A model generated the notes under the pieces. That model saw only the letters and a list, made by a program, of their open reading frames with translations. It did not search any database and was not told the origin of the DNA. 64,000 bases of DNA from Paramyrothecium sp. XJ0827 (taxonomy: Eukaryota > Ascomycota > Sordariomycetes > Hypocreales > Stachybotryaceae), in contig JAJFPB010000002.1 of NCBI GenBank assembly GCA_020881915.1, positions 2,232,001 to 2,296,000 on the forward strand, given 5' to 3'. Of the stretch, positions 27,529 through 56,917 are shown in pieces. A program made the translations under genes and the position numbers. Within the stretch, counting starts at the first letter, position 1; every line of letters begins with the position of its first letter.

Positions 27529-29108
27529 TCTTTCTAGATCATGGAGCACCAGCAGTCTGCTGGACAGCAAGCTGCGGAGTTGGCGTTGGCAGGGTGACAG
27601 GGCAATGGGCTTGATACCATCTCGAGGCGTTTGGAAGGTTGAGCAACCGGTCATTACAAGGGAAATTTTACGTCATTACATTCAAGCATCATTCGTTAAC
27701 TATGTCAGAACAAATGGGAGAGTACAGATGAATCTTTGCTTTTTATATACCTGCTAGTGACTACTGCGTGGCATGCAACACACCGCTTTTTGTGCACAAG
27801 CAACCAGTGCAATCACGAGGTAAAAGACAAGGACGAGCCCGATAATTTGGATCGATGCGCCAATTGGTAGGCGGGAGCAAAGGTTGTGGATATCAAACAG
27901 TTGCGGTGTCTTATCATGTGACGCTTAATCGAGGTCGTGGCGAATGGGATGTGCAGGACAATAGGGACAATAGCTCGTCAGCCTGTAGGGAGCGGCCCTG
28001 TGCTTGTGGTCAGAAGGATGAAGAGATTTCGCAACAAAGCAAAACCAGTCTCTGCGTATTGATCCAAACAGAAGAAAAAACTAGCAATTGGGATTTGCTC
28101 ATTGCTTCTGTGACGCCTGGCTGTCATGTACGGCATGCGAGGGTGACGGTGATTCGAGATGGGCTTTGGAAATCAGCCGGTGCCTGCTTCGCGCGGCCAT
28201 TCATGTGAAAGGAGGCTTCATCCAGACAAACGCTTGATATGTAAGGTAGGTACCTTAAGCAGAGCCTTCGTGTTTGTAGATGAATTCTTGCTCGCATAAA
28301 CCTTCTGCGGATGTGAGAAAAAGAGTGTTTCTGAACGAAACGCATCCTGACCTCTTTGTTTCCCCGCTGCGGTAGACGCTGCGAGGCCCAGCAGGCACCT
28401 GTGAAGCCAAATGACCAAAGCATCCTTCACCATCCTTCACCAATCGTAGTGTATGATAACCCCCCCGAAGGCTTCGATAGGTTGGTACTCGGGAGCCCCA
28501 CCAGAACGCGGCCGTCTGGGATGTCGATGACAAACAAACTGACCACCCAAGTTCCAGCTTCGGCCAAGCGCTTCGGGCCAGGACCGCACTATTATCACAC
28601 ACCCACCTTTCGCCCCGGTTCAACTGACTCCATCGCCAACCGCCAGCCAGCCGCATCCACGTCCCGCTGCCCGGGGTGAGGACGATAGGGCAACGACAAA
28701 GGCATTATCCACCATCACAATAGGCGCCGCCAATTGCTCGCTGCGTCGGCTCTCGCCCCAACCCTGCCTATTGTTTTCTGCGACGGCGCCCTCCTGGCCG
28801 TCGTTTGTTGACGATAGGCGGCCGTGGACGGAGCTCCTAGCTCTGCTCCGGTGCCCTTTTGCGCGCCTTCGCGTGACGCCCGGTCCTCGTCCCCATCATC
28901 ATCATCTTTCTTTCCTCTCAACCTCCTTCGCCCTTTTTGATTTGACTCGGACCCTCTGCGCGCGCAACCGTTCGTCGACACGCTTCGATACCCCCGGCCG
29001 CACGCTTTCGCGCCAACCCAACCGCACCATCCATCATCGCTCCGCCCCTTATCACGTTCCAATTCGACGCTCACCTCGCGTCACCCGGCATGCGCACGCC
29101 GACGAACC
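27529..29108. other. Intergenic region
   Basis: 1.6 kb. A near-palindromic TAAGGTAGGTACCTTA motif is at 28242-28257, and an 11-bp direct duplication (CATCCTTCAC twice) at about 28422-28442. The last 350 bp are pyrimidine-rich on the + strand and are probably promoter and leader of the next gene. No gene seen. Confidence 0.4.
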
Positions 29109-36886: not shown

Positions 36887-38278
36887 TCAGGCGAAACCGG
36901 CCACGCTTGTCCACTGACCATTCTCGTCATCCGCAGGGCGGAATTCAACAGCGCCTTGAAAGTACCCAGCGTCGTGCCATGCCTTCATCATCTGACTGTC
37001 AAACGGACCTTGTTTGGCATCGCCATCGCGTCCATCTGTCCACCGAAACTCCCATGTTTTCACCGAACCTTCCTCTCCCGCATTTTGTGCCTGCGAATTT
37101 GGTTCGACCCAGTCCTCGCCGGTCTCCCGCCGGTATTCCCTGATCAACACCTCCCTTTCTTGCTCGTAAATGTCTTCGTGATCCCGGCTGAGCAGCTTGT
37201 CGGCAGCCTCTGTGATAGCATTAATTGCCGCCTTGATGCGAACTTGCTCGGGGTCTTCAGCAGCCGTCTCGGCATCGACATCCATGCCCTCCGCTCCCTT
37301 GTTCATCTTCTTAAGCTTCCACTTCGGGACCTTCTTAACCTTTGCTTGGCCCTTGCCTAACCTTGCCAAAGCTTCAAGGGGAGTCTCGGCCTTCTCTAGC
37401 CGGAGGATCAAGGTCTCTAGAAGCTCCGACACAAGAACGCCATCCTCTTGGATGCGCTGTTTGCGTGCTTCGGCTTCACGCTTCTCGTGTGCTGCCGCCG
37501 CTCTCTTCATCTCCTTTTTGCTCAGGCCATCCAGCCAATTGTCATGAACGGCGTCAGGATCTCCAGCCTTGCGGACGTAATTACCTTCTTGATCAAACTG
37601 TCCCTCTTGCATCTCCTCCTTGAGGTTGAAAGCTTCCACCTTGGGTGCGTTTTTTTTGAGTCCTCCGGCACCAACTTCAGCATCGACACCTTCTTCCTCG
37701 ATGGCGAGCTCTATGTCGGCCTCATCATCGCTGCTGTTCTGATCGTCCAGTCGAATTTCGCCTTTCGTCCTGCTCGCGCTCTCTTGACCTTCGATTTGCG
37801 ACGCGTCCAGGAAGCGCACTTCCTTCTTGCCAGACTTTGCCTGATCCCCATCGGCGGTCGCCTCCGCGCCGGCATCGTCGTCGTCCGCAGCGAACATGTC
37901 GTCATCATCATCATCTTCCTTGGCAACCTTGCCAGCGCTAACGCTTGGCCCGCTGCTCTTCGCGTCGTAGTTGTCGAGCTGATCGTTGATGTTGATGTCG
38001 CCTTTCTTGCGGCTTTCGGCCTTCGCATTGAATGTTTCATTGTCGGAATCGCTGTCGTAACCGTCCAGGTTGACTGCGCCGCGTTTGGTGGCATTACCAC
38101 CTCCAATTACGTCCGCATCAAGTACGGCATCGTCTTCCCGAGCGTCGGGCGCAAGTATGGAAGGGTTGCGGACATCGAATTTGACACGCTTGTTCTCTGC
38201 GTCTTCGTCGTTGTGATGCGTTCGGGCAAAGTCCTCACCGGCGCGTTTCGGCCGCGCAGCGGAGTACCGCGAGGACAT
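36887..38278 (-). CDS. LIN1: GYF-domain U5 snRNP protein Lin1/CD2BP2
   Basis: Single exon, 463 aa. It is a component of U5/tri-snRNP in the family (Snu40/Lin1, CD2BP2), where the GYF domain binds Pro-rich ligands and U5-15K. The start MSSRYSAARPKRAGEDF was chosen over in-frame upstream codons because the region before it has no resemblance to the family. The N-terminal half is acidic and low-complexity (KEDDDDDDMFAADDDD). YDSDSDNETF and DAVHDNWLDGLSKKEMKRA are family motifs. The C-terminus carries the GYF domain: WEFRWTDGRDGDAKQGPFDSQ ... WHDAGYFQGAVEFR. It is divergent from UFD1, 579 bp apart. Confidence 0.93.
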   Translation of the reverse strand: MSSRYSAARPKRAGEDFARTHHNDEDAENKRVKFDVRNPSILAPDAREDDAVLDADVIGGGNATKRGAVNLDGYDSDSDNETFNAKAESRKKGDININDQLDNYDAKSSGPSVSAGKVAKEDDDDDDMFAADDDDAGAEATADGDQAKSGKKEVRFLDASQIEGQESASRTKGEIRLDDQNSSDDEADIELAIEEEGVDAEVGAGGLKKNAPKVEAFNLKEEMQEGQFDQEGNYVRKAGDPDAVHDNWLDGLSKKEMKRAAAAHEKREAEARKQRIQEDGVLVSELLETLILRLEKAETPLEALARLGKGQAKVKKVPKWKLKKMNKGAEGMDVDAETAAEDPEQVRIKAAINAITEAADKLLSRDHEDIYEQEREVLIREYRRETGEDWVEPNSQAQNAGEEGSVKTWEFRWTDGRDGDAKQGPFDSQMMKAWHDAGYFQGAVEFRPADDENGQWTSVAGFA

Positions 38279-38857
38279 CTTGATCCTTGTGCCAAAGAAA
38301 TTCAGATGGAAGCGATGATTGACAACAGAAGGAGTTGTTGTTTTGTGAAATGAACATACAATATGATGAGGAAAAGTGTATTTGAGCTTCCAAGGCTGCA
38401 TCTCGAAAATGTCCCTTCGTTCACTTGATAGGTGCCTGCGTGTGGGGACCTTGCATAGCTGTCGAAGCCCTGTACTAAAAAGGTACTTAGTGCAGCTATC
38501 TGCTAACTCGAACAAATAGGTCATCCGTTGGTACCTGGCATGACATCGGCCCTGTGACAAAAGCTTACTTACCTACCTTGCTGGACCTGCGTCATGCTAG
38601 AGCTGCCTCAACTCTCTGCCCCACGTCGTCCGACATCTTCACATCTACCACCTTGTGCATTCATCCTCCTTATTGTGTTGTAGTCGCACCTCTACGCAGG
38701 CACGATCGACCGGAGACTCGCTCGCACTTTCGTAACAACAACAACAAATACCGCAGAACGTCCCGCCTCTTAGGAACGATTTGTATCTGAGATCTGGTCA
38801 AAACCAGCCGCCACCTCCATCCGTTGACCGTACGCTGTAACCACCGAACCTTTCAAG
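38279..38857. promoter_or_regulatory. Divergent promoter LIN1 / UFD1
   Basis: 579 bp between opposite start codons. It contains a CTTACCTACCTTG motif at about 38567-38580 and AACAACAACAACAA near 38736. No gene seen. Confidence 0.4.
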
Positions 38858-40661: not shown

Positions 40662-41278
40662 ATGCCTGCCGCCGACAAGAAGTGGGATGCTGCTGCTGAG
40701 CGCGATCTTTGCGTTGCCATCATCATGGGCAACCAGGAGACGGACCGGGTGCGTTACAACTGGGCCAAGGTCCACAGCCTCATGGCAAACTACGGCTACC
40801 CGTTCACCAAGGACGCCATCTCGTGAGTTTCCTGCCATGCTTGGTTGACTCCGCGCCCGTCGACTGACTCCGTCCAACAACAGCCAGCACTTCAGCAAGG
40901 TCATCATGAAGGACTTCAAGGCCCGCCACAACGGCGGGTCTGCGCCATCCACGCCCAAGAAGGGAGGCACTCCAAACGCGAAGGGCACCTCTTCCGCGTC
41001 CGCCAAGAAGCGCCGCTCCAAGCTTGCGGATGCTTCTAACGGAGATGACGATGTCGAGATGGAGACCCCGACCAAGAAGATCAAGCGCAGGACTTCCGAA
41101 GAAATGTATGATGACAACATCAAGCTCGAGGAGGGCCGAGGCCATCGTGAGCGCAGGTATACTACGCCTTTTTTGCAGAATCAACCATAGCAAAGGTACT
41201 AACACTTCCAGCGCTACGATTGCCGACAATGAAGAAGACTTCAACAAGTGGTTGAACGATGATGATTCCAGCTCCTAG
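40662..41278 (+). CDS. Myb/SANT-like small nuclear protein, cluster member A
   Basis: Three exons (40662-40822, 40884-41156, 41212-41278) give 166 aa. Residues about 6-70 form a helical Myb/SANT-like domain: KKWDAAAERDLCVAI, then NWAKVHSLMANYGYPFTKDAI, then SQHFSKVIMKDFKAR. The first intron cuts the domain in phase 2 just before QHF, the same place as in members B-E. The tail is Ser/Lys-rich with KKRRSK and TKKIKRR, likely nuclear signals, and ends acidic (WLNDDDSSS). The acceptor of intron 2 at 41211 was chosen for its CTAAC branch site and matching frame. DNA binding is inferred from the fold; the third helix lacks the classical Trp. Confidence 0.8.
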
Positions 41279-42150
41279 TCTCTTCACGGCAGTGGAACGT
41301 TCAAGCCATGGGAGGCGGGGATTTTGGCTTATCCACGGAGGGAGTGCGAGAGTTGGATTGGGTGTTGCTCATTTCTTGCTTCGACAAGGTTACGGAAGCC
41401 ATTTGGTGAAGGCAACACATGTCAAAGCACGATCTGCGTCAAAGCAATCTTTCACCCAAGTATAAGGAAGGTTGACCATCTGCGGGTAAATCTTAGGTAG
41501 AGAGTTGGCGAGCCTCCAGCATAATTCCAGCCTTATTCCCCAAGGCGGAAGAATAATAGCTAAGCTGAGTGGGAAGCAATCGAGGTATTGCAGCCGATAT
41601 CTTGTGGGCGCCACTCTATGGCTTAAGTCCATTTAAATAAAAGAAATCGGCTCTCTCAAGATGTGTAGCAGGCTCTCAAGGAATGGTCTCAGAACCTGGC
41701 AGAAGTGACTAAATTCAAGCAACGACATATTGGCAATGCACTGGATATTCACTATGGAGGCTCCGTGCCGTCTTTATCATGGCATGATTAGTGCGAAAGA
41801 CTCTGTCTTATTGCAGCGTTACGATACTGCTGCATTTGAAATAGGGACGGCTACAAAGGCATCCACTAAGCGAGGTTCATGGGGGTGAAATAAAGTGTTA
41901 TTCCTCGACTCCGAAGTGGCGATAGCTCATTGATAAACTACCGCGGTGCGAGGCAAGCTGTCATCATGCAAGCAAAACCATATTGATCAGATCGGAATAT
42001 TCTGCGGCCAGCAAATTCATCTCGTCAATTCCCCTCCATACTCCAAACCCTCCTCCCATTGTCTTAAGATGTAGACGCGTTAAATGCCATGATGCGCCTC
42101 GAATGCCAGATTTCAGTGCAGAGGAGCCGTATCTCGAAGTATGATTAATA
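41279..42150. other. Convergent region between Myb-like A and B
   Basis: 872 bp between the two facing stops. No gene, repeat or domain remnant seen. Confidence 0.4.
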
Positions 42151-42689
42151 TCAGTCTACACTTCGTAATTAGCACATGAGGAAGATAGTACTCGGCATGG
42201 GGCTGCTTACCTTCTTCAGTTTTGGCGCGCTTTGCGGATGGGCTCTTCACGTCTTCCCCATCCTCGCCGCTGTCCTCATAGTAGGCCTCGGATTTGATGA
42301 AGTCAACGTCATCATAGTCATCCTGCATCGGGGTAACCGATTTGGCAGCCTTCTTTGGGGTGCTCCTCTTACGAGGAGTCGTGTTCTTGCTGGACTTGGC
42401 GGGGGATGGTGCCACTCCTAGGCCAGAGGTGTCGCGAGTCTTTCGGAGCTTTTGAACATGTTGTCTAAACACAACAGGTTAGCAAACGGCTTCGAGGATG
42501 TCATCTGAATTATTAGTGCGTGTGATACTTCATGGCGCTGAAGGTGAAGTTGTAGCCTTGAGCATTCATCTTCTCCGTCAAAGTCGTGAGCATATCCTTG
42601 TTTGGTTTGATTTCCTCTAGAACGACAGAGAGAAGGATCTCATGGGCAACTGTGTCCCAAGAACCAACTCGACCGGGCTGGATAGCCAT
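42151..42689 (-). CDS. Myb/SANT-like small nuclear protein, cluster member B
   Basis: Three exons on the minus strand (42689-42529, 42464-42211, 42155-42151) give 139 aa. The domain is SWDTVAHEILLSVVLEEI, LTTLTEKMNAQGYNFTFSAM, KQHVQKLRKTRD; intron 1 after 161 nt is phase 2, exactly as in member A. The tail has PRKRSTPKKAAKS and an acidic stretch, ending AKTEED. The last exon codes only for the final residue and stop (AC TGA); if the last intron is not removed the protein gains about 30 residues and ends near 42113. Both readings keep the domain. Confidence 0.75.
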
Positions 42690-42852
42690 GTTGAAGAAAG
42701 AGAGCGTTCGAAGGAGATGAGGGTAGACAAGGAAGGTATTGGTGCAAGGGCCAAAGTTGAGCGTGTCGATGGATATTGGTGGTGTAGAAGTGAAGTCGAG
42801 GGTTTGAAAGGAAAGAAAACAGGTTGGTGGTTGATGGATGATGTTGCGAGTT

Positions 42853-43128
42853 TTAAGATGCAAGTGAAAATGCTGGGGTGACGGGCAGGTGGCGAGCTCT
42901 CACAAAGAGCGTTCTGCCAGGTAGTTTGGGAAACGGTGGCATGATGAAAGCAACACAAGAAGTGAAATCATACTTGAGGGCTGAGTCGGTAAAAGTATAT
43001 CCCAGAGCACGAAGTTCGGCCATGACCTTGGCCCATTGATCACCAGAGAGCTGGAGATGCTGGAACATGCAGACGAGAATATCCTCGTGGACCTTGGCGT
43101 CCCACTTCATCATCTGACGGCTGCTCAT
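42853..43128 (-). CDS. Truncated Myb/SANT-like protein, cluster member C
   Basis: The frame has 91 codons when unspliced. Residues 1-52 match the first part of the family domain: MKWDAKVHEDILVCMF, DQWAKVMAELRALGYTFTDSALK. A phase-2 GTATGA donor sits after 155 nt (at 42973), the family position. The best downstream acceptor (about 42914, 60 nt intron) leads to a short tail LFVRARHLPVTPAF and a stop, without the QHF helix or the basic/acidic tail. So this is either a minimal protein of about 71 aa or a decayed copy. It lies only 163 bp upstream of member B on the same strand. Confidence 0.5.
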   Translation of the reverse strand: MSSRQMMKWDAKVHEDILVCMFQHLQLSGDQWAKVMAELRALGYTFTDSALKYDFTSCVAFIMPPFPKLPGRTLFVRARHLPVTPAFSLAS

Positions 43129-43151
43129 GGCGAATAGAGATGGAGGTCTCG

Positions 43152-43637
43152 CTAGACAGGGCCGTATATGGAAGGCAAGTGAGGGCTTGTGTAATGAAGT
43201 TGACGTGGTTTAGATGGGGAGAAACGCGAAAGAGGAAGCGGCGAAGATTGTGCAGGCAATGTGAAAGCAACCTCATGGTGGCAGAGTGCCGCCAGCCAAT
43301 GCAGCTGCTCCGGCTTCACTGGGCCACTTGTGCGCAGAACCAGGCGCAGCTGGCAGAGACTGGAGGGGCTTTGGTGGGCCGTCGGATAGAAGCATGAAGA
43401 AACGCTTGAGACGAACAAAACAAGAATATCCGATGATTGAAAAGCCCGTATCAAGCAGGGAACGTACCGTATGGCCTCCCAGGTGACCTCGTGGCCATGG
43501 GCAACGAGAAAGCCAACCATGGCGGCACGCGCATCGGGGTTGAGGCTACCGCCCGCTTGCGAAGTCTGGTACAGCGCAATGACGAGGTCATTGAGGAAGT
43601 TGGCATTGTCCCAGAGAGGAGATGCTTGTCGAGGCAT
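43152..43637 (-). CDS. Myb/SANT-like protein, cluster member D, divergent or decayed C-terminus
   Basis: ATG at 43637. Exon 1 (43637-43468) codes for LWDNANFLNDLVIALYQ, then ARAAMVGFLVAHGHEVTWEAI, matching the WD...GHxxT part of the family domain. A phase-2 GTACGT donor follows at 43467, at the family position. What follows is unclear: the frame stays open to 43152, and acceptors near 43360 would give PVKPEQLHWLAALCHHEV without a recognisable QHF helix. The end coordinate is the end of the open frame, not a firm gene end. It ends 24 bp before member C begins, on the same strand. Confidence 0.45.
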   Translation of the reverse strand: MPRQASPLWDNANFLNDLVIALYQTSQAGGSLNPDARAAMVGFLVAHGHEVTWEAIRYVPCLIRAFQSSDILVLFVSSVSSCFYPTAHQSPSSLCQLRLVLRTSGPVKPEQLHWLAALCHHEVAFTLPAQSSPLPLSRFSPSKPRQLHYTSPHLPSIYGPV

Positions 43638-44215
43638 GACGAAAGCTTTGCTGATGTGATGATGATGATGAAGTCGTAAGAACAGGGGTTGGGAAAGGAC
43701 GTGGTTGAGGTGAATGGGGCTTGATGCAGGGAGAAAGAGAGAGCAGATGGGATGTAGAAAAGAGGATGCATGGTTCAACACTCGAGACGAGGAGGCAGGA
43801 AATATTAGGTGAGGTAGATGTATTAACCGCACTCGTCGCCAGCTGCGGCAGTAGATTCATTTACCTCTGCAACCTGGGCTCAAAACCGATAGCCGCCGCG
43901 TACATTGTCGACGCAAAGAAATGTAAGGTAAGGTAGCCACTACTCCTATACAGCTGAATAATCGCTAACTGTCTGACAATGTAAACGCTCCCAAAACTCC
44001 AAAAATCCGCACCAGCGACTTCATGACGACGCTGAAGAACCGTAGTTGTACATTCAACAAAGATTCGATTGCCAACGGAGTTGACTGGGTATCAATTCAA
44101 AGGACTCAAGCATCCGGTAATTCCGCGCCGAGGGAAAACTCCTATGCTTCGCCATAAGTGAATCTGGGTGACTGTCAGTGCTGCTCCTACGTGAGTTGCG
44201 TCGCATCCGTGAAAC
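43638..44215. other. Region between Myb-like E and D
   Basis: 578 bp, with a GAT trinucleotide run at about 43658-43670 in the leader of D, and a TAAGGTAAGGTAG motif at about 43924-43936. No gene seen. Confidence 0.4.
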
Positions 44216-45190
44216 TCACTCTGCTTGATATGGATCAGATGAGCCGGACCCATTGTGCGCAGCCAATACGAGGACGGCCTCATCATCCAAGGAAGGGTCA
44301 TGGTCGAGTTCGGGATCCATCAGGCGCTGTCGTTTGGCATCGTGCCCTTCCGTGTCGTCCTCGTCCTCATTGTCCTCCTCCAAAGGGAGAGGTTCCGGTG
44401 GCGGAATAGGCGTTGATTGCGTGGGCATATGCACCGGTGCCATTGAATCTGAAACCGTCTGCATGCCAAGCTGAGAGGATACGCCCTGTGTGATGGCAGC
44501 CTGGTCAGGGTGTTCCAACTTCTGATTTGCAGAGTGTTGTATGGGCGACGGGTAGGTTTGAGGGTCCTGATTTTGCATAGAGGCCTCAGATGATCCTAGT
44601 CCTGGGCTGGCAGAGTGCAAAGGGTCCGGCATAGTCAAAGAGTCGTCAATTGAGGCGTTAGGGTCAGTAGGCGCAGCAGGTTGCTTCCTCGGCCGCCCAC
44701 GACCAGGACCTGGACGCCGTGTGATGGGATTCATGGTTGGGTCGCGTCTCATATGCTCATTGACAATGCCATTGGTATCAGCTTTGTTCTGGGCTCTTCG
44801 AAGCCCTTGAAAGTGTTGTCTGATTCACGGGTTAGTCGGGAGGTCATGGTGCCAGCGAAACACGACACATTGGATTCTAGCAATAGACGGCGTGAGGACG
44901 ACGTGTGTGCATTTGGACCCCACCCGCGGATCGTGATGGAAAATAAGTGAAGCAAACGGGATTGAATTTTGGAATCGCACTTCATGAACATGAGAGTGTG
45001 ATAGCAACGATGAAAAGTTATATAAGATCACTTACCGACATCCTTCGTTGGTGAAGCCATAACCCAGGCCGCGCATGTGGTTGCCGATGGTGGTCCATTC
45101 CGAACCACTAATGACACCAATGTTCTTGACAGACAAAATGGTGAAAAACAGATCCTTGTCTGCCCGGTCATTCCAATTCTTGGTATTCAT
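44216..45190 (-). CDS. Myb/SANT-like protein with AT-hook, cluster member E
   Basis: Two exons on the minus strand (45190-45036, 44819-44216) give 252 aa. The domain is NWNDRADKDLFFTILSVKN, EWTTIGNHMRGLGYGFTNEGC, RQHFQGLRRAQNK, with the phase-2 intron after 155 nt as in C. The intron is unusually long at 216 nt. Just after the domain, PGPGRGRPRKQP is an AT-hook, which binds the minor groove of AT-rich DNA. The rest is Pro/Gln/Ser-rich and acidic with DAKRQRL as a possible nuclear signal. It is the largest of members A-I. The stop codon lies within GAGTGAGTTT, so a further 3' intron cannot be excluded. Confidence 0.75.
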
Positions 45191-48009
45191 AATGCTTGAG
45201 GGCCAGCCTTGCTGGTGGGTCGTGATGGGCAGTATAGTACGGATACACGGCGTCTTACATGCAAGCGAGCGGTAACACTGTCGAAGTTAACGTCTGTTAG
45301 GACTGGGACTGGGTCAACGGGAAAATTGGTAGTGGGAAATTGCTAAGGCGTGCCAAGTTGGCAGGAGGTTGGGGTCGATTGAGCGCACGACGAGGCCGGT
45401 GGTCCGTGCGTGTCTCCTAGCACGTGGGGAACACGGCTCGGGATGGCTGTTGTTCCGGCCTGGCATGGGCAGTCACCAGAGGCTGAAGCACATTCAATGG
45501 GGGAGTTTGAGGTGTACAAGTGTCCAGAGTGATATCGCGTGCGAAATTTTAATTCTGCGTTTTACGACTGCTTGGGTTTTGCGGCATCTACCTGTGATTG
45601 TACCCCGGCAGCACGGGCAATGTCTTCTGTTAAGCCGTGATGGTGACGCTCGACCAAGGTTTAACCGAGTTAGCGTCGTAGTGCTAGACGGACAGTGGAC
45701 ATTGCCCATTGAAGCGTAAGGTAAGGTACCTTAGGTACCGTTTCGGAATAAGGTGAGGTAAGGCAAGCAAAGGCTCATGATTGATTCCCTCGTTTCATCC
45801 GGCTATTGGTCTGGAATGCGTGCCTGATTGTCTACGATGTGCAAACGGGGCCCGCATCATCCTCCTGCGTCTTCCGAAATGAGTGAACCTTCTCAGGAAC
45901 CATCTCAGTCATTCGTCATGGGGGAACATGCCTGGACAATTAGGCAACAACCAGGCACGACAAGGGTTCTGCGTCGCCCGACTCACTCAGGAGCCGGTCA
46001 ATTTGCCTCCCTGGTGTCGCAAAAGAGGGGTCACGTGTTCTCGTGGCAACCTGGCGGTGCGCTAGCCCACCAGGGTCCCGCAAAAGTTCGCGCCCGTCGC
46101 GTCTCCCCGGGACCTCACCTCAATCCCCTCCATCATGGCTTTTGGCCGTTTACGGCGCGCGCTGACCATGAACGGATATTTAAAACAGGCTAATGGCTTT
46201 CAAAGGCATGATTGGATTTTACCAGCAATTTTTCTGGCTTCAAAACCTGGTCTGGGGGTTGAATTAAGCAAAATCCTCCTTCCACAATCTGGTGATGGTT
46301 GCGACGTCAGCGCACACTCTTACGACCGGCCTCGGTCCCAACAAGCCCCCTTTACGCTGCCGGAGGCTTTTGGGTGTGGGCTTGGCCTCCCCCCTGACGC
46401 ATGCGATCCACAACCTGTGCTGAGATTTTCTTCCTCCGTTTCTGGTCATGGAGGCCTTCCAATCGAGGAGGACTCGGGCCGGCTTGCGTTGCTTTTGTGT
46501 TCACGGTTGCGCACCCACTCCCAGAGAAAAGTTGTCACGGAGCTGCATAGCTTGCTCAATCAGATAGTCGCTCTGAGCAATCACAACCGTCAATTGTAAA
46601 AGCCCCAGATGCGGCCTGCAGCTGATGGGGTGCCAGGTGAGCAAAGCACAGGCATGGCATGGGTCCGGCGGGAATTCCACGATGCCGCTATTCCAACACA
46701 CCCCCTCCACAAGCGGCTGCCCTTGCTTCTGCGATAGCTGTGGGATGAGTCACAGGCTCAGAAAAAGCTTTAGATCCCTGTTTAGCATGCACTTACGAGC
46801 CGTCTTTTGATTGACGAATGCGGCGGCTGCGCCGATTGAAAACATGCCAGCGAATCCAGTGAATTACCAAGGCTGGCGAGGGCCGTACACGTGGGCACAA
46901 GCGGAGGCGACGTACAGGACTGCGCAATCAGCGAGGTCTACGCCATCATAGTGCGAGGCGTGGGAGGCCCTCCCATCAATTGCATTAATGATCAGCAATC
47001 CATGCAAACGCAGAACTGCGACGCAGATGGCGTTCTTTTACGTTTTCTGGTCGCTTGTTCTCATTTGGCGCTGTCTTTCGCCCATTTAGCGCATCGAGGG
47101 CACCCAGCAGGGATCCGCCTTAGTGGGTTTCCGTAGCGGGGGTGGCCACCACTTTACGCGGGTTGGCGCCCGCTGCAGCCCCTCAACGCGGGCCTAAATG
47201 TCTCTGAAGCTCAGGGCAGGGGACAACAGGTTTGGGTTTGGGTTTGGTGCACCAGGCAACAACTGCCTCTTGAAGCTACTTCACCATCGTCCATTCTCGG
47301 CTTCCCAGACACACACCCCCCAATTAGGCCATCAAGATGCCAATCCCGCGGCTGGATTTTTCTTTAGCTACGCCACTGCTGGGATCTGCTCCGCAGCGAA
47401 TGCTGCACGAGGCAATGTAAGAAAGCTGCTGTGACTTGCCGACACTTCACTCACCAACTTCCATCCTTGGCTGCACCCCCCTCCATCTGCCATCCGCCCC
47501 GTAGTAAAGCTGAGGCGAGTCGTTGGCTTCCTGTTAAAGAGGCTTCCTCCCCTCCGTGCAGTTTCATGCCTTGTTCGTCTCTGCTTTTTGCCTCCTCTCC
47601 TTTTCTCTCTTCCCTCTTTGTCAGACAACAGATCCTGAGAATCTGATGCGAGTCTGCTTGCCTTCAGTCTCCTCCACTCACACATCAGCCTCATCCTCAC
47701 CTTCTTACTCCCAACCATCCTCGACCCCCACATCCCTCTCGGTTGATTCACTTGGCTGAAATCCCATCGATCACCGTGAACGACGCCACGTATAAACCCC
47801 CGAGATACTGCCTCTTGGCCCTCACCGTGACTCACGTTGATGACGGCGGCTCCTTTCTATACATAACTGCCTTACATCGTCGTCGAGGCACCCTTGAGCT
47901 TTCCTGAACTCAGTAGAGTAGGCTTCTCTGGCCAGATAACTCACGCTGTTCACGCATCCCTTCCTACCAAGTCGTTTGTTCATCCAGAAGAAGCACCAAG
48001 CCTGTCACA
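45191..48009. other. Long divergent intergenic region between Myb-like E and F
   Basis: 2.8 kb. A perfect 12-bp palindrome TAAGGTACCTTA is at 45722-45733, within a wider GGTAAGG repeat (45716-45760). CACGTG sites occur near 45421 and 46033. From about 47430 the + strand is pyrimidine-rich and is probably the long leader of F. Open frames in between have no resemblance to the family or other proteins. Confidence 0.4.
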
Positions 48010-48843
48010 ATGTCTCCTAACAGCGACAATGCCATGGCTCGCTTCCTCTTCGCCATTCTGAAGCAGAAGAGCCTTAAGGATGTAAGTCTCTGATGGCCTC
48101 TCCATACACAGCCCGCAAAATCTGATCCACGTTTAGATCGACTGGAACCTAGTTGCTCAAGACCCAGTCCTCATGTCACCAATCACCAATGGTCACGCCG
48201 CCAGGATGAGGTACTCCCGCTTTCGATCAACGATCCTCAACCACGAACCACAGAAGAGAGGCCGAGTTGGCGAGAAAGGTCGAGTTTCGAAACCGACCAA
48301 GAAAGACACACAATCAAGGAAGAGCAGCATTGTCAAGTCGGAGTCGAGTGCGAGTCTCTCATCCTATGCTCAGGTAAGGGAGACACTGACTTAGTCTTGC
48401 AAACAAGTAACAAAGGTGCTAATCCCAATTATAAACAGCTGTCTCCGGCTTCCATGACCTCACCTTACATGGGAGAGCTTCAAGACGACTTCTCAACTCG
48501 CTTCCTCACGCCGTGTAGCGACGATATGACCAGTGGCTTGTGCATCAACCCCGCCACTATCAGGAGTGCCAACGGCAGGCACAGCGATGCCAGTCTCTTC
48601 TCGACCCACATGGATGGCTGTGCTGACTTCATGGCCCAAGTCGGCCATGATCAGACTGGGCTTGGTCACTCTCCTGAGACTGGGTTCTCCGCCTTCGAAG
48701 CCGCCTATGACATGACAGGCTATAAAATGGGCTCAGTGGAAGGCCCTCAGGCCAACGATGCTCTCATTATGAATGAGCACCAGCCTTTGCCCGACTTTAC
48801 ACCCGAGTGGAACGACCGCATGCACCTTCCACACCGCGGTTAG
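48010..48843 (+). CDS. Myb/SANT-like protein, cluster member F
   Basis: Three exons (48010-48081, 48137-48373, 48439-48843) give 237 aa. The domain spans residues about 8-55: ARFLFAILKQKSLKD, IDWNLVAQDPVLMS, HAARMRYSRFRSTIL. Exon 1 has exactly 24 codons and ends in phase 0, as in member I. The DW..VA signature and R-x-RYSRF place it with G, H and I. The middle is basic (KKDTQSRKSS). The C-terminal 130 residues are uncharged and Met/Thr/Asp-rich (SMTSPYMGELQDDF) with no basic/acidic alternation, unlike G-I; this could be an activation region (inference). Confidence 0.75.
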
Positions 48844-49657
48844 CCTCTTGCGCTGACCCATGATGACTTACGCATTGCAGATGAAGGTTGAGGGAGATAG
48901 ACTTCTTTTGGTTTCTACGACTCGACAGACTGGGGCAGCTGAGATTGGCAACCGGGCATGATTCTGTTTGAGTGTGCAACAGGTCTGTGATCTGTGTGGC
49001 ATGTTAATTTCACGAAAGGCGTTGAAAAGGAGTATGGACTTGCTTTGCTAATGGATGTTCTTTGGTACGATTGTGGCATCACGAACTTGCTCCCGTACTA
49101 TCAAAAGCTGTACAGTATCTGCGTCGTCTTCTTTTAATCAGTGTCTTGACAAGTTATGATAGGCACACATGGTTATTTCCTAGCAGTTATGGTCACAATA
49201 TCATGATTTCAACGCCAGCGGTACATTGATAAAATACCACCAGCTCGTAGGATGTTGTGAAAGACACCTCCGCTTTATCAGCTCAAAGGTAATGCTCATG
49301 CCATCTGTTTTGGTCCGGCACCCGCGTTGTTTTACTCGGCCAGCCGTTGCAGCTGGCCCCTTGGTCCTCATTCCTCTGGTCAACGCATCAAGCTGCACGT
49401 CACTTATATCTCACTCCTCCTGCCCTTCGAGCAACAAGCTTTCACTTCCTCCTCTCTGCCTCACACCTAGCAATAAACGTCTCCTCAAAGGTCTCCATCA
49501 ACCTCTGCAACGCACTTCTCTTATCCTCCATTCGAGTTCGTTTCCAAACTCAACCCAAACCAGCAAATTCATTCCACGGGTAATGGGACATTCTGGCCTA
49601 TTCCTTGCCTTCATCCAGTGGCTAATCATTCACCTTTCAGGTCAGAAAAAGATAATC
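48844..49657. other. Intergenic, leader of Myb-like G with likely 5' UTR intron
   Basis: 814 bp. A likely leader intron lies at 49580-49640 (donor GTAATG, branch GGCTAATC, acceptor TTTCAG), ending 17 bp before the start of G. Nothing else seen. Confidence 0.45.
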
Positions 49658-50185
49658 ATGGCTGACGATTCCCCCAAGAAGAAGGAGCCTACTGCATCGG
49701 AGGCCTTATTCTTCTTTGCCATTGTCAAGCACACCCGCAATAAGGCCGATGTGGACTGGAATTCTGTTGCTGCAGAACAGGGCTTCAAAAATGCGGAGGT
49801 TGCCAAGGTATTCCACACGGATCCGCCGTCATAAGCATGTCTCTCTAACCCACCCTCACAGGTTCGCTTCGGGCAAGTGAAGCGGAAGCTGGGATTGACC
49901 ACCGATTCAAATGCGTCGCCTGGGAATACTCCCGGCTCCAAGAGAGGAGAACACGGCTCGGCTTCGACCACTCCAACCAAGGCTACTAGGGTCACCAAGC
50001 CTGGTGGCCGACGAGTTGGCACCAAGGGCAAAGGCCGTGGCAAAGTCAAGAAGGAGGCGCCTGTTGAGGACGAAGAGGATGAGGAGGTCGACGAGGAAAG
50101 CAGCGACATGTTCTCACGCCCCCCTCCTGCATTCAAAATTCTCAAGGATGAGGAAGATGAAGAGAAGCCCGCTGCCTTCGACTAG
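49658..50185 (+). CDS. Myb/SANT-like protein, cluster member G
   Basis: Two exons (49658-49807, 49862-50185) give 157 aa. Domain: EALFFFAIVKHTRNKADVDWNSVA, FKNAEVAKVRFGQVKRKLG. The intron falls at residue 50 (phase 0), within the last helix and within a few bases of the intron in member I. The tail has KPGGRRVGTKGKGRGKVKKEAP, an AT-hook-like basic run, then a strongly acidic stretch (EDEEDEEVDEE). In structure it is the simplest full member of the second subfamily. Confidence 0.8.
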
Positions 50186-50845
50186 AGTCACTCGATCCGC
50201 CCAAGTATAAAGGGCCGGTGCGTTCGCAAGTCATGAGGCTTAGGTGATGGCTTGGGCATTGGGAAATCAAGAAGAAGATGTCTTTTGCAGAATCTGCACC
50301 AATTTGGCTCTGATGTCTAGACACGGTACATGAGCTTACACAGAAATTTGCTCGGGCTATGATTGATAGCCAGGATTTTCGATAGGCTGTGACGATACAT
50401 AGCACAATCAAACACATCATGATCTCACCCAAACACGTTGGCTTTTCATCTTATGGGTTTTTTGACTTGGGGTAAATTTCCGTCCTGTAACTGACTGTGA
50501 CACATGTGCGGCTCGGAATATCCTTGTGAAGTGGTTCGACGGATTATTGAGCGAGTGCCGGGCAGCTGCAGCAAAACCCTGGCCGCGTACGTCAGTTCAA
50601 AGTGAGATAAAAGGCACCCAAGTGAGGTGACCATGAGAGCTGCCAGACTCTTTTTTTTCTCCCTTGATACAGCAAAACCTCAAACTCACGTCTATCTCTC
50701 CAAAGACCAAGCACCGCCCACACATATCTCGACAACACGAATAACAAGTGTTCCCTCCTCTTTCCTCATCAGTGTGAGCCCTATCATTCATAAAGTGAGA
50801 GAGCCCATACGCTGAAGGAGTTTCGAAGCTAACTGCCGCAAAAAG
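50186..50845. other. Intergenic, leader of Myb-like H
   Basis: 660 bp between two genes on the same strand. The part after about 50640 is C/T-rich and probably leader. No feature otherwise. Confidence 0.4.
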
Positions 50846-51235
50846 ATGGCACCACGCAAGAAGACTGCTAGCACCGACGGCGAGGCCCCCATCGGCCTCA
50901 CGGACAGCGAGCTCCGTTTCATCAAGGCCGTCTTCGACAACATGACGCAGAAGCCGGATGCCGACTGGACTATGGTTGCCTCCGACCTCAGCCTCAAGGA
51001 CGCGAAGTGCGCCAAGGAGCGCTTCCGCCAGATGTCCGTCCGCCACGGCTGGCGAGACTCGGGCTCCGCCAACAACAGCCCTCGCAAGCCAAAGGCCACC
51101 GACGGCAAGGTCACCAAGAAGCCTCGCACCCCAAAGAAGAAGGTCAAGCAGGACGAGTCGTCCGACGAGGGTGTTAAAGACGAGGAGGACAAGGACGAGA
51201 AGATGAAGGATGAGGACGGTGATGAAATCTTCTAA
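50846..51235 (+). CDS. Myb/SANT-like protein, cluster member H (intronless)
   Basis: Single exon, 129 aa. Domain at residues about 18-70: DSELRFIKAVFDNMTQKPDADWTMVASDL, DAKCAKERFRQMSVRHGWR. The tail is Lys/Pro-rich (KKPRTPKKKVKQ), then acidic (DEEDKDEKMKDEDGDEIF). It lacks all introns of its relatives, so intron loss or retroposition of a spliced copy is possible. The third helix KERFRQMSVRHGW is the most Myb-like in the cluster. Confidence 0.82.
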   Translation: MAPRKKTASTDGEAPIGLTDSELRFIKAVFDNMTQKPDADWTMVASDLSLKDAKCAKERFRQMSVRHGWRDSGSANNSPRKPKATDGKVTKKPRTPKKKVKQDESSDEGVKDEEDKDEKMKDEDGDEIF

Positions 51236-52218
51236 ATGGGCTCTCGGGGATGTCCATACATGAACAGTCTCGGCGAGAAAGGAGCTTCGTTTGTGTCTCA
51301 CCTTGAGGTGACAAGATGCCTCGTTGCGGATCACTTGCACCGAGTGATCTTTCATCTGGTCCATAAAATTTGGTCTACCTAGATTGCTGGATGTTATAGA
51401 AAGTCGAGGCATAGATCACAGGTGGATGGATATGGGATACATCATCACAATACACCACTTTTGCAAGTGATATGGGTTGAATCCCGTGCCTTTCTCGTTA
51501 ATGTGAGATCTTCATAGTGCACACAGCGTAGTTGCGGACGTGCTATCGTGGTCATGGACATCTCGCTGGTCTCAGCATCTACAGGCAAATCCGTACACTA
51601 CGATAATCAACCACATCGCAGTCCCCATATCTTTCTGCCTTCTTCTTGTGCTTTCTTCCAAGTGCTCTGGCTCCAAACAAACCTCGCTGAGCCGGGTGCC
51701 GCCGGGTGCGGCTGTCATCAACAGCTGTCTTCACCTGCAACTCACCTCGAGTCGGACAACTTCGGACGCTTTGCCCTGGCAACCCGACTTCCATGGACAG
51801 CTCCGGTCAGCTGCCCGCCGTTCCATCTGAGCATAAATTCTGCTCCTCTCCCCTCTCTGCCTCTCGCTCTCCCCCTTCCATTGTTTTCTCTTTTCCAATC
51901 ACCTTCGTCTATTGTTTATGAGGACACCAGACGAGCTACACATAAGCCTTCTTTTTGTTTTGCTTCCCTGCAAAGACTTTTCAACATCTTCTACCATCTT
52001 ACACTATCTGCTTTGTCTATCGAGAGGTGAACTTTCCTTTCATCCGTCTTGTTTTTATCAGCTGGCACATCTGACGCTTCCCTCACCACCCCATCTCGAC
52101 CACACGGTCCTACATCATCTTAGCAGAACGCCCTCTCTTATTTCTACCATTCTTCTGTTGTTCTATCATTAACAAGGTATCTCACGCATCCGTTAGCTCT
52201 TAGAACATCATCTCCAAA
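51236..52218. other. Intergenic, leader of Myb-like I
   Basis: 983 bp. Pyrimidine-rich from about 51810 on the + strand. No gene or repeat seen. Confidence 0.4.
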
Positions 52219-52870
52219 ATGTCTAAGCAGGAGCCCAGTGAGCAAGTCAGGTTCTTGGTCGCGTGCATTCGGCACACCACGAATGGCCGGGTGAGTCTTG
52301 AGACATCGGATTTGCTGAGCCATCACTGAGATACAACAGCCTGACTTCGCTGCCGTTGCTGGAGAGCTTGACATTGTCAGCAAGGCTGCCGCGTAAGTAC
52401 ACAGACTCGTCATCATGGCCTTTGGCTAACATGGTCTTCAGCCAGAAACGATATGAGCGAATGCTCAAGGCCAACAATGTCGGCACCAAGCCCGCTGGCG
52501 CCAAGGTTTCCAACGACGAGGAAGACACCCCGAAGCCAAAGCGTGCTGCCAAAGCCACTCCTACCAAACGCAAGGCTCCCGCCAAGAATGGTCGTGCTTC
52601 CAAGAAGGCCAAGACTGAGGACGACTCTGAGTCCGATGTCAAAGACAAGAAGCCTGTCAAGCCTGTTGCTGCCGCCGCCAAAGGCAAGGGCAAAGGGGGC
52701 AAGGTGAAGAAGGAGGAGGAGGATGAAGAGGAAGAGGAAGAATCCGCTTCCGCTCTCTCTGGTAAGATACCGTGTCGCTCAGTATCGCTGCTATTACTAA
52801 CCCGTCCGTCTTAGAGCCTCCTGAGGCCGAGGACGACACCGACGCCAAGTCTGCCAAGTCTGAGGACTAA
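52219..52870 (+). CDS. Myb/SANT-like protein, cluster member I
   Basis: Four exons (52219-52290, 52340-52392, 52442-52761, 52815-52870) give 166 aa. Domain: EQVRFLVACIRHTTNGR, PDFAAVAGELDIVS, KAAAQKRYERMLKANN. Exon 1 is 24 codons ending in phase 0, identical to F; the second intron is phase 2, close to the position in members A-E. The tail is a run of basic blocks (PKRAAKATPTKRKAP, SKKAKTE, KGKGKGGKVKKE), then acidic (DEEEEEES) and ends SAKSED. Its exon layout links the two subfamilies. Confidence 0.8.
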
Positions 52871-53844
52871 AAGATGCCTCTTACATCTTGAAGAAGTGGT
52901 GGCCTGAGAAAAGAGTTGCTAGCTGGGCACGATAGGTTGGGGCTCCAGGCGATGGGTTGGATCAGTTTGCAAACAGTTTGAGTCACGTTTGTGCAACTAC
53001 GGCTGAGGACCGCGTTGGGCTTCCAAAAGGAGGGTCTCTGACGATCTTTGGCATCTCTTTTCTTGGGATCTCGACGTCGATAGGTCATTCTTCTCATACA
53101 TTCCTTGGCGGGCTAGACTCACTGGATTACGCATCAAGACAAATTAAAACCGGCTCTTTTGTGCCTCATGTAAACCGCTCTCATGATGATCTGTCGCGAC
53201 CAAGCTCGTAACCAGTATCTACATTCGAATGAATTTTTGATTTGGAACACACCTGACTTGGCAAACCGTCGGCCAAGCCATAATCTTCCGGACTGTTTAC
53301 GTGCATCTTGATTTTTGACCTAGTGGCGGCATGCAACTTTTACAAGGGCTCTAACATCTCTCTCTGGCTACCGGAGTCTCAACACACACTTTCGTCTCAT
53401 CCAGAACCAAGAGCGCATGGCAAACCATCTGCCTGTCGGCCGCCCTGTGCATGCCAACTTCATAGCGCCAGCCCCTCGCTTAACGCGGTGGTTGCGTAGT
53501 TGCGTGACGAACACCTGCCTGGGGAGAGTAACAGCTACTCTATTGTCCCCACTTGACAATATACTTGGGCAACTCGACGCAGGCTTCAGTGGTCGCCATC
53601 TCCATGTGCCATGAATAGTGATTCACTACACAATAGCCATGGATAGCATGACAGCTTTCATCCCAAGGCTTCGCTCGCTCCATGTTCTCGATATGGTTCA
53701 CCAAGCTTCGCCTCATTTTCAAAATACCTTCTCGTCCCTTCATATACATACAACTACAGCCGTTCCTAGGCATCCATCTCGACTTCTCAATTATTATATC
53801 ATCTCTACGGCTATCACTATCCCGAGCTCGTTCAAGCCTACATT
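52871..53844. other. Intergenic region
   Basis: 974 bp between Myb-like I and the coiled-coil gene J. No feature seen. Confidence 0.4.
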
Positions 53845-54918
53845 ATGTCCAATTATCCTCAGCTTACACGTTCAGGTGGTCTTCAACAAGACCTTCTTGC
53901 GCCAAATGCGGGAAATCCAGCTTACACCAATATTTGCGGATCCAAGACTTCGAACCCGGCTATCGTTACACTTACTGAGTCTGTTCTTGATCATGTTCAG
54001 GCTCGGCAGAACTTCCAACTCAGCTCGGCCGTCTACCCTCGGCCGCCGTCAAACGAATGTGTCGAGAATCCGTCAACGACCAGCCCTCAGGCCTCCGTCA
54101 AGCAGGTGCGACTTGCATTCCCGTCTCGTCTCTCCGACTTTGCAACCAGGAGCTCGGCAGCAATCCCTCTTAGCCTGGAGAACATCGCCCACGCACAGGG
54201 TTGTGAGGAGGCTTCTGAGCACTCGCCCACGGCTCCAAGCAGCGGAGGCTCGTCCAGCTCTAGTATCGAAGTCATCAGCGAGGAAGTGTTCGCCATCATT
54301 GAGCATGCAGTGGAGACGAACATTGCTGCAGCTACCGGTCCATTGCGACTTGGTATCAACCGCCTGAACCAGTCGCTTCGTTCGTTTCAATTCGAGAACA
54401 CGGACCTCAAGGAGCAAAACGACACCTTGAGCCGACAGCTTGACTTGCACTATCGTACGGTTGAGCAACACGCCGAACTGTTCGATGAGCAAAACAAAGC
54501 TCTTGGCCGAATGTTCGAGCCCCAGTCGAAGAACATACAAGGCACTGCTGAGAACCTGGTCATGGTCGCTGGTCTTGTCAACCACCTCTCTCAGGTCATC
54601 ATGAATCTTCCAATTGCCATTAACCAGGTCGTGAATTCCGCTGTTCATCACCACGCAGAAGCAGCAATCCGGGATGTCATGGACGCGCAACAGGAAGCCA
54701 TGCTTGCCGTTCAAGTTCATGCACGCCGGGTCAACATGGCCGTGGCAAGCGAAGACTTCTCAGACTCTACTCCGGATGACCTTCATCCACCGCCAACCCC
54801 TTGCTGGTCTGATACAGCTTATCCACACAGAATAATGGAGGCTGTACAGCCAGGATGCAGGTACAAGAAAGGCAAGCTGAGGGGCTTGGTTCAGAGAGTT
54901 TTTCCTACTCGTCGCTGA
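53845..54918 (+). CDS. Coiled-coil protein of unknown family inside the Myb-like cluster (J)
   Basis: Single open frame, 357 aa, start MSNYPQLTRSGGLQQDLL. Residues 1-130 are disordered. From about 140 to 235 it is helical and likely coiled coil: SEEVFAIIEHAVETNIAAATG, RLNQSLRSFQFENTDLKEQNDTLSRQLDLH. Another helical part follows (LVMVAGLVNHLSQVIMNLPIAINQVV, then AAIRDVMDAQQEAMLAVQVHARR). The end is basic (YKKGKLRGLVQRVFPTRR). I find no Myb-like domain and do not recognise the family. It sits between members I and K in the same direction. Confidence 0.65.
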   Translation: MSNYPQLTRSGGLQQDLLAPNAGNPAYTNICGSKTSNPAIVTLTESVLDHVQARQNFQLSSAVYPRPPSNECVENPSTTSPQASVKQVRLAFPSRLSDFATRSSAAIPLSLENIAHAQGCEEASEHSPTAPSSGGSSSSSIEVISEEVFAIIEHAVETNIAAATGPLRLGINRLNQSLRSFQFENTDLKEQNDTLSRQLDLHYRTVEQHAELFDEQNKALGRMFEPQSKNIQGTAENLVMVAGLVNHLSQVIMNLPIAINQVVNSAVHHHAEAAIRDVMDAQQEAMLAVQVHARRVNMAVASEDFSDSTPDDLHPPPTPCWSDTAYPHRIMEAVQPGCRYKKGKLRGLVQRVFPTRR

Positions 54919-55579
54919 AAGAGCCGGTTTTACGATCACACTTGAGTAAGGCAGCACAGGGAAATATTGGCTTGCTAGAGAATGGGCACGGGACTGGGTT
55001 GACATGCTTACAGAGTTGCATTCTTGATGGCTTTAACATATCAACATTTGTTAAGACTTACCATAGATTACGAATTCTGACCTTATCTTGGGATTACCAA
55101 ATAGCTCTCTGCGTAAGTGGCTTTCCGTCTGATCGTGTCCTGGGCGGCCTGGTCTGCCAGCTGTCAAAGCCCTCGACAGTGTTGCAGTGTCGCGCGAGCC
55201 GCAGGAGTCTCCTCCGGCTGCCCCCTCTTCTATTGTTCTGGGCTTTTTGTGCAAAACAATAGCCCACAATCGAACCAGAGCTAGCTTTGCTTGTTCTTCA
55301 CCGTTTGCTATCCCACGCTTCACCATCGATATTCCAATTTCTCGAAGTCTCTCTAGTGTACATTGCTTGCTCACTTACTGACCTCCTGAGCCCTTACTCT
55401 TTCATCTGTTGTTCGAATCACAGTGCTTTGTTCCTCTGTTTATTCAAACGATCGCCACATTCACTATATGGGGGAAAGGTAAGTTGACTTTATCCCAATA
55501 TGCAGGCGTGCTTGTTCACCAACGAGTTCAAATCACAGAACAGCATTGGATACCTTTGGCTCCCAGATCGAAGTTCAAG
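54919..55579. other. Intergenic, leader of Myb-like K
   Basis: 661 bp. A GTAAGT donor-like site at 55479 with possible acceptors before 55550 suggests a leader intron, not certain. No gene seen. Confidence 0.35.
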
Positions 55580-56917
55580 ATGGGTGTCGGCTCGGCTAAG
55601 AAAAGCTCACCGTCCAAGAATCGCGTGATGGCAACACCGGAGCGTCACGCAGCAACGCGCGCCTCAAACATGGACCGCTCTCCATCGGCAAGCAAGACTC
55701 CGACTACTCCTCGGGACACGACGTATAGCCATCGTCTACCAACCGGAAGACAACGTCAGGCGAATGGCCGTCACTCGGGTCGAAGCCTTATCATGTGGAC
55801 TCGTCAGCTCTGACATCCTCCAACGGTTCGGACCTCGCTAACTGTGCCCAGGTCCACGTATGAACGACAAGCTACTCCTACACATCCAATACGAGTGCGC
55901 CAGGCACAAGATCCAGCTGCCATGGGATGCAATCGCCCACAGACTACATCCAGGTTCAGCGGGTACCGCAGTAGTTCAGCACCTAGCTCGTGTGCGTCGA
56001 GACTTGATCTCAGGAGGTCATCTTGTGCCGCCGCTTCCTGGAAAGCCCAATGTGTCCGGTAGCTCCGGTGACCCCGAGATTCGTGGCTTCGTCCGTGAAG
56101 ATATGGATGGCGACGACAGGGAAACCACCCGAGCCGTGACGTTTGCCGAAAGAATGGATGATCCCAAGTTTGAGTTGCCAGACAGTTTCCACAACACCGA
56201 GGCTCAACCAATGATGGAAACTGGGGACTTTGACATATATGATTCCGGAAACGACCTCACTGAATCGCCCACGGTCCACCGTCGAGCGTCTCAAACCCAA
56301 TGTAAAGATTCGTCTTACAGGGATGCTGTCGCCATGCGGTATGAGAGTAGCATGTTGGATCATGTCGTTCCCATCGATGATGATGTAAGTGTATATCGAC
56401 AATGCTCCATGCTTGAGCTGACAGTGTACAGGTCTTTACGAGTCCTAGAGCTCGGCGTGATTATCACAGCTTCACCACTTCCGCGGATGACTCTAGCGAG
56501 AACGAAGCAGGTTCACAGTATCAACACAAACTTAGGTCCAGCTTCACTGGGCTTCGCGACGCCTGTACTGGTATGGTTCCCATCTTCGCCAGTCCTTATG
56601 GGCTGGGCGCGCCTACAGGATATATCCCTCTCCATTTAGGATATCCAATCTTCGGACAATCTCATGTTCAGATGGGGCCAGGGCCGGATATAATGTCCCA
56701 GTGGCAGGCTCCTGATGCTCGAATGCCTTCAACTGTCGGCAACTTGCCGGACGAACGGCAGTTTGAGCATGTCAGCATCGACACTTCGGACACAACTCAG
56801 GCGAGCATTGAAGATTTAGTTGTTCAGCAGCTATCATCGGAGCAATGCCCTGATATCCAGGACCTTTCGTCTTCTGGCGAGGAAATTGACGAGGTGAAGG
56901 CTTGTCCAGAAGACTGA
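55580..56917 (+). CDS. Myb-like domain protein, cluster member K (large)
   Basis: Three exons (55580-55778, 55852-56384, 56432-56917) give 405 aa. The N-terminal 65 residues are Ser/Lys/Thr-rich and disordered. The domain is at about 68-130: RMNDKLLLHIQYECARHKIQL, PWDAIAHRLHPGSAGTAVVQHLARVRRDL, followed by GGHLVPPLPGKP. The P/D-W-x-x-(I/V)-A and (V/S)-QH-(L/F) marks link it to both cluster subfamilies, and the PWD..A...GAV.QHL..(L/V)R pattern is one I recall from widespread fungal Myb-like proteins. The rest is acidic and has a hydrophobic Gly/Pro/Tyr-rich part (YGLGAPTGYIPLHLGYP) that may act in activation. It may be the conserved founder of the cluster (inference). Confidence 0.75.

Follow-up and report, generated by a model that had tools for sequence, protein, structure and literature searches.

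A local cluster of genes for small, putatively Myb-like proteins of two families in Paramyrothecium sp. XJ0827

Introduction

HMG-type and H1-like chromatin proteins are small and carry lysine-rich and acidic stretches. Another group of putative DNA binders is the Pfam family PF22980 (Myb_DNA-bind_8), with accession IPR054505; a search of the available literature for any of these three names found no paper. Among Myb proteins, the excerpt available of one publication presents MylA of Aspergillus nidulans, with two tandem MYB domains, as one of 21 MYB-like genes of that fungus (PMC11199622), and the excerpt of another names Myb PF00249 and holds nothing on PF22980 (PMC3998117).

Here we analyse a locus in the genome of Paramyrothecium sp. 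XJ0827 (51.8 Mb in 15 contigs). The window, i.e. the whole stretch of 64,000 nucleotides (nt) under study, spans C8 2232001-2296000 on a 6.45-Mb contig; positions 40662-56917 of it contain a series of genes and first exons for small proteins, designated A to I and K. The reading that we favour, with some reserve, is an old local cluster of small Myb-like helical-domain proteins with a basic third helix, belonging to two families. Broader literature searches, judged by titles or abstract starts, brought up no paper on such a cluster.

Results

Gene models were assembled by eye from the sequence with GT-AG introns and translated by script. The cluster runs from the first ATG at 40662 to the last stop at 56917 of these hand-built models, the same limits that an earlier note on this DNA had drawn. 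The members are:

A: 40662..41278, + strand; family 1; exons 40662-40822, 40884-41156 and 41212-41278; 166 amino acids.
B: 42151..42689, - strand; family 1; exons 42689-42529, 42464-42211 and 42155-42151, the last, of 5 nt, being tentative; 139 amino acids.
C: 42974..43128, - strand; family-1 first exon only, with a phase-2 donor and no consensus branch-plus-acceptor unit up to the intron of B.
D: 43468..43637, - strand; weak family-1 first exon only, with a phase-2 donor and, again, no consensus branch-plus-acceptor unit up to the intron of B.
E: 44216..45190, - strand; family 1; exons 45190-45036 and 44819-44216; 252 amino acids; AT-hook-like PGPGRGRPRKQ.
F: 48010..48843, + strand; PF22980; exons 48010-48081, 48137-48373 and 48439-48843; 237 amino acids.
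G: 49658..50185, + strand; PF22980; exons 49658-49807 and 49862-50185; 157 amino acids.
H: 50846..51235, + strand; PF22980-like, under the cut-off; intronless; 129 amino acids.
I: 52219..52870, + strand; PF22980; exons 52219-52290, 52340-52392, 52442-52761 and 52815-52870; 166 amino acids.
K: 55580..56917, + strand; outlier with a QHLARVRR segment; exons 55580-55778, 55852-56384 and 56432-56917; 405 amino acids.

The first donor of K, GTCGAA, is non-consensus. The earlier note had counted ten genes, A to I and K. All ten could be placed with GT-AG introns, but only eight models (A, B, E, F, G, H, I and K) are complete, because C and D are represented by their first exons and show no second exon or tail recognisable as theirs.

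The members fall into two families and an outlier. Against PF22980, whose curated cut-off is 27 bits, F (39.1 bits), G (27.9 bits) and I (73.7 bits) score above the threshold and H below it (17 bits, E 0.0037); A, B, C exon 1, D exon 1, E and K give no match up to E 10. Leave-one-out profiles, with each score judged against 2000 shuffles, retrieve the members of either group: 24.5 bits for F, 40.9 for G, 34.4 for H and 21.3 for I on one side, 27.7 for A, 17.3 for B, 41.8 for C and 24.2 for E on the other, in each case with none of the shuffles as good. By sequence, F, G, H and I are family 2 (PF22980), H by its leave-one-out grouping, and A, B, C and E are family 1, which is without a Pfam model. 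D joins the latter weakly, with 4.9 bits, a score reached by 7 of its shuffles. The marks of family 1 are a leading W-D or W-N, GYxFT except in D, and, where the exons of A, B and E meet, QHF or QHV. K is an outlier, linked faintly and to family 1 only: the full-domain profile of family 1 gives it 5.1 bits (0/2000 shuffles as good), 13/2000 shuffles equal it with the exon-1 profile and 87/2000 with the family-2 profile, and it has no Pfam match.

Family 1 has a phase-2 intron at one common codon in A, B and E, and the donors of C and D match it in codon and phase. Family 2 is less uniform, with a phase-0 position common to F and I, a different one in G and no intron in H; the shared intron phases that the earlier note ascribed to the array are thus a property of family 1. 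Likewise, its single domain common to all ten holds as likeness inside each family, not across the two, with D weak and K apart.

Between the families, hhalign returns a probability of 1.4%, and in cross-profile tests the true scores are equalled by 30 to 1336 of 2000 shuffles. These values leave room for a weak link, but they speak for two unrelated families that became neighbours by chance or because selection favoured co-location, and for no single duplication series. We regard this as a distinct possibility, though not the probable one; against it stand the small size and tail plan common to both families, and the second intron of I, which, like the family-1 intron, is phase 2 and interrupts helix 3 at most one codon away in the alignment. 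This coincidence may be a hint of shared origin of the families.

Structure prediction covered H and A exon 1. The H model has three helices (residues 20-35, 41-47 and 53-67) at low confidence; its structure matches include HTH (helix-turn-helix), homeodomain and Myb chains, none of them significant. The model of A exon 1 has two helices, helix 3 lying mainly in the next exon. The Myb-like label of the earlier note is carried in F to I by PF22980 and the tentative H model, whereas A to E offer pattern likeness only and the two-helix model of exon 1. As that note had stated, the classical pattern of three Trp is absent, which both family alignments bear out.

Charge is distributed in a regular manner. 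Among the eight members examined, the net charge of helix 3 lies between +2 and +5. Seven of them, all but K, also have their most basic 30 residues after the domain and their most acidic 30 after those. The PGPGRGRPRKQ segment of E resembles an AT-hook. With this make-up, the products are probably small DNA- or chromatin-binding proteins.

The clustering is real. In the whole genome, PF22980 finds six matches with E up to 1; five are in the locus (F, G, H and I, the last through two exons) and the sixth falls on C14, in a Myb gene that passes the cut-off of PF00249. At the same threshold, two of 14 bacterial control genomes gave matches, none over the cut-off. As a control for scatter, PF00249 itself has no match in the window; its 35 matches in the genome, several per gene, are spread over nine contigs, and the Pfam searches with the cluster proteins likewise bring up no PF00249. 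When single proteins (E, A, G, I, K, the C-B join, F and H) served as queries, no place outside the locus was located with E up to 10; these searches were run exon by exon at low sensitivity, so that, for example, G retrieved H and missed F and I, while A retrieved only C besides itself, and B and D were not queried alone. The pattern GYxFTxxA has 12 matches, three of them in the locus (A, B and C, the sequences of E and D deviating from it), and the reversed control pattern has 16. The nine outside matches reach at best E 0.028 with the full-domain profile and 0.057 with the exon-1 profile, and are not member-like. Because of these genome-wide, single-protein and pattern searches, we grade confinement to the locus as well supported for PF22980 and as likely, not proven, for family 1.

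A repeat search of the cluster recovered one direct family, which consists of acidic-codon runs of 20 nt, and six pairs of short inverted repeats (20-36 nt, 70-85% identity). Protein identity to the first sequence of the alignment is 22-31% in family 1 and 22-27% in family 2. Since nothing but short repeats survives, the duplications, if such they were, are judged to be old. The earlier note had proposed a local expansion by tandem duplication; its local character agrees with the confinement of the detected copies, and the duplications themselves we infer.

The three neighbouring first exons D, C and B deserve separate attention. Exon 2 of B holds QHVQKLR and the basic and acidic tail. C and D may be truncated relics, or short proteins made from unspliced or non-consensus transcripts, and we give this an even chance. 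Apart from the missing tails, an exon-2-like remnant without an acceptor, QHFHLHLKTRN, follows the donor of C at 98 nt and resembles a lost exon 2 of C (4/400 shuffles are as good); beyond the donor of D, the best candidate for such a remnant does not stand out from shuffles (192/400), and the profile score of D is weak, as given above. The frame of D stays open for 105 codons beyond its donor, as in 203/2000 shuffles, and that of C for 40 codons (922/2000). Decay sits less easily with first exons that are open and have intact GT donors, with third-position GC (0.67 in C and 0.66 in D) similar to that of B (0.60) and E (0.63), and with C having the highest score in family 1.

That same score of C is in keeping with another arrangement, in which a single gene would have D, C and B as alternative first exons, with a promoter for each that would give a different helix 1-2, joined by same-phase splicing to B exon 2. 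We hold this to be unlikely, and so too its corollary that all three would receive the tail and the last part of helix 3 from B exon 2. The donors agree with it in codon and phase. Eight YAG acceptors were tried for C and 18 for D, and only that of B, opening the exon at 42464, yields an in-frame QHVQKLR. No CTRAY-plus-YAG unit occurs in the 939 nt from the donor of D to the intron of B, and the two found are both inside that intron. Such a unit is present in 12 of the 13 modelled introns (all but the first intron of I), a count that is partly circular because the introns were modelled by eye. Finally, the three ATGs have pyrimidine-rich leaders (0.71, 0.68 and 0.71), values reached by 0.3-0.9% of 150-nt pieces. 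On the other hand, 59/500 shuffles likewise lack a CTRAY-YAG unit, the introns would measure 509 and 1003 nt, against 47-216 nt in the models, the donor of B itself is nearer to the acceptor, and the remnant past C looks like a lost exon 2 of its own. Slighter still is the chance of the full proposition, in which three tandem first exons (D, C and B), each with its own version of the first half of a Myb-like domain, share one second exon for the tail and the end of the recognition helix. The choice of promoter would then swap DNA-binding specificity, and the surrounding cluster would comprise all copies of the two Myb-like families that can be detected in the genome.

The cluster is flanked on the left by UFD1 (Pfam UFD1_N1 and UFD1_N2) and on the right by HSP60 (Pfam Cpn60_TCP1), the neighbours that the earlier note had named. 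A is on the + strand, B, C, D and E are on the - strand, and F to K on the + strand. One further open reading frame (ORF) stands inside the cluster and, as in the earlier note, was not counted as a member:

J: 53845..54918, + strand; intronless ORF of 357 amino acids between I and K.

J has no Pfam match under E 0.2, with weak coiled-coil family matches only at E 0.22 and above; its product ends basic. Between the divergent E and F, 2.8 kb (45191-48009) contain no modelled gene and a small palindrome at about 45711-45744. Beside UFD1, on the opposite strand, lies a GYF-domain ORF (36887-38572, - strand). Farther off, short tandem repeats with periods of 6, 12 and 21 occupy 25420-27135, partly in an A-over-T-rich stretch; the AT skew is 0.229 at 26001-28000, which overlaps part of them.

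Discussion

We propose the following for the products of the cluster. Each protein would consist of a short helical Myb-like domain with a basic helix 3, followed in most by lysine-rich (in E, AT-hook-like) and acidic stretches. Helix 3 and the basic tail would contact DNA or the nucleosome, and the acidic tail would temper this contact, so that the proteins might act in the nucleus as small chromatin or regulatory factors. The set comprises PF22980 (F to I) together with a GYxFT/QHF family that has no name and includes A, B, E and, as first exons, C and D. We infer nuclear location, DNA binding, a chromatin role, an origin by tandem duplication and common ancestry of the families; DNA or chromatin binding is the likeliest role as judged from the sequences. 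Being compact and deletable, the cluster lends itself to studies of the function of PF22980 proteins.

The described systems resemble the locus in part. For the first-exon arrangement of D, C and B alone, clustered protocadherins and the 5' cassettes of chelicerate Dscam, as depicted in the excerpt of PMC4835542, are a comparison in way of working; here there are just three first exons, the proteins are unrelated and the sharing is unproven. In fungi, alternative first exons are sporadic events in Verticillium dahliae according to the excerpt of PMC4035056, and tandem coding first exons with a shared constant exon were not found among the top-ranked papers of our literature searches. HMG-type and H1-like chromatin proteins share with the cluster the small size, the lysine-rich and acidic stretches and, in E, the AT-hook-like motif; the domain here is different, and the Pfam searches gave no match to such families.

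PF22980 is the nearest named family: F, G and I belong over its cut-off and H below, A to E and K are unmatched, and the profile says nothing on clustering. With classical Myb/SANT proteins (PF00249) the locus has in common the three-helix plan, as far as the low-confidence H model goes, the basic third helix and Trp at one or two places; it differs in having no match in the window, no three-Trp pattern and one domain per protein. The genome has its classical Myb genes in scattered places, yet here a Myb-like family is detected at a single locus, in copies stripped of nearly all DNA likeness. Single-locus detection of old copies suggests that their co-location is maintained, or that the copies rarely move.
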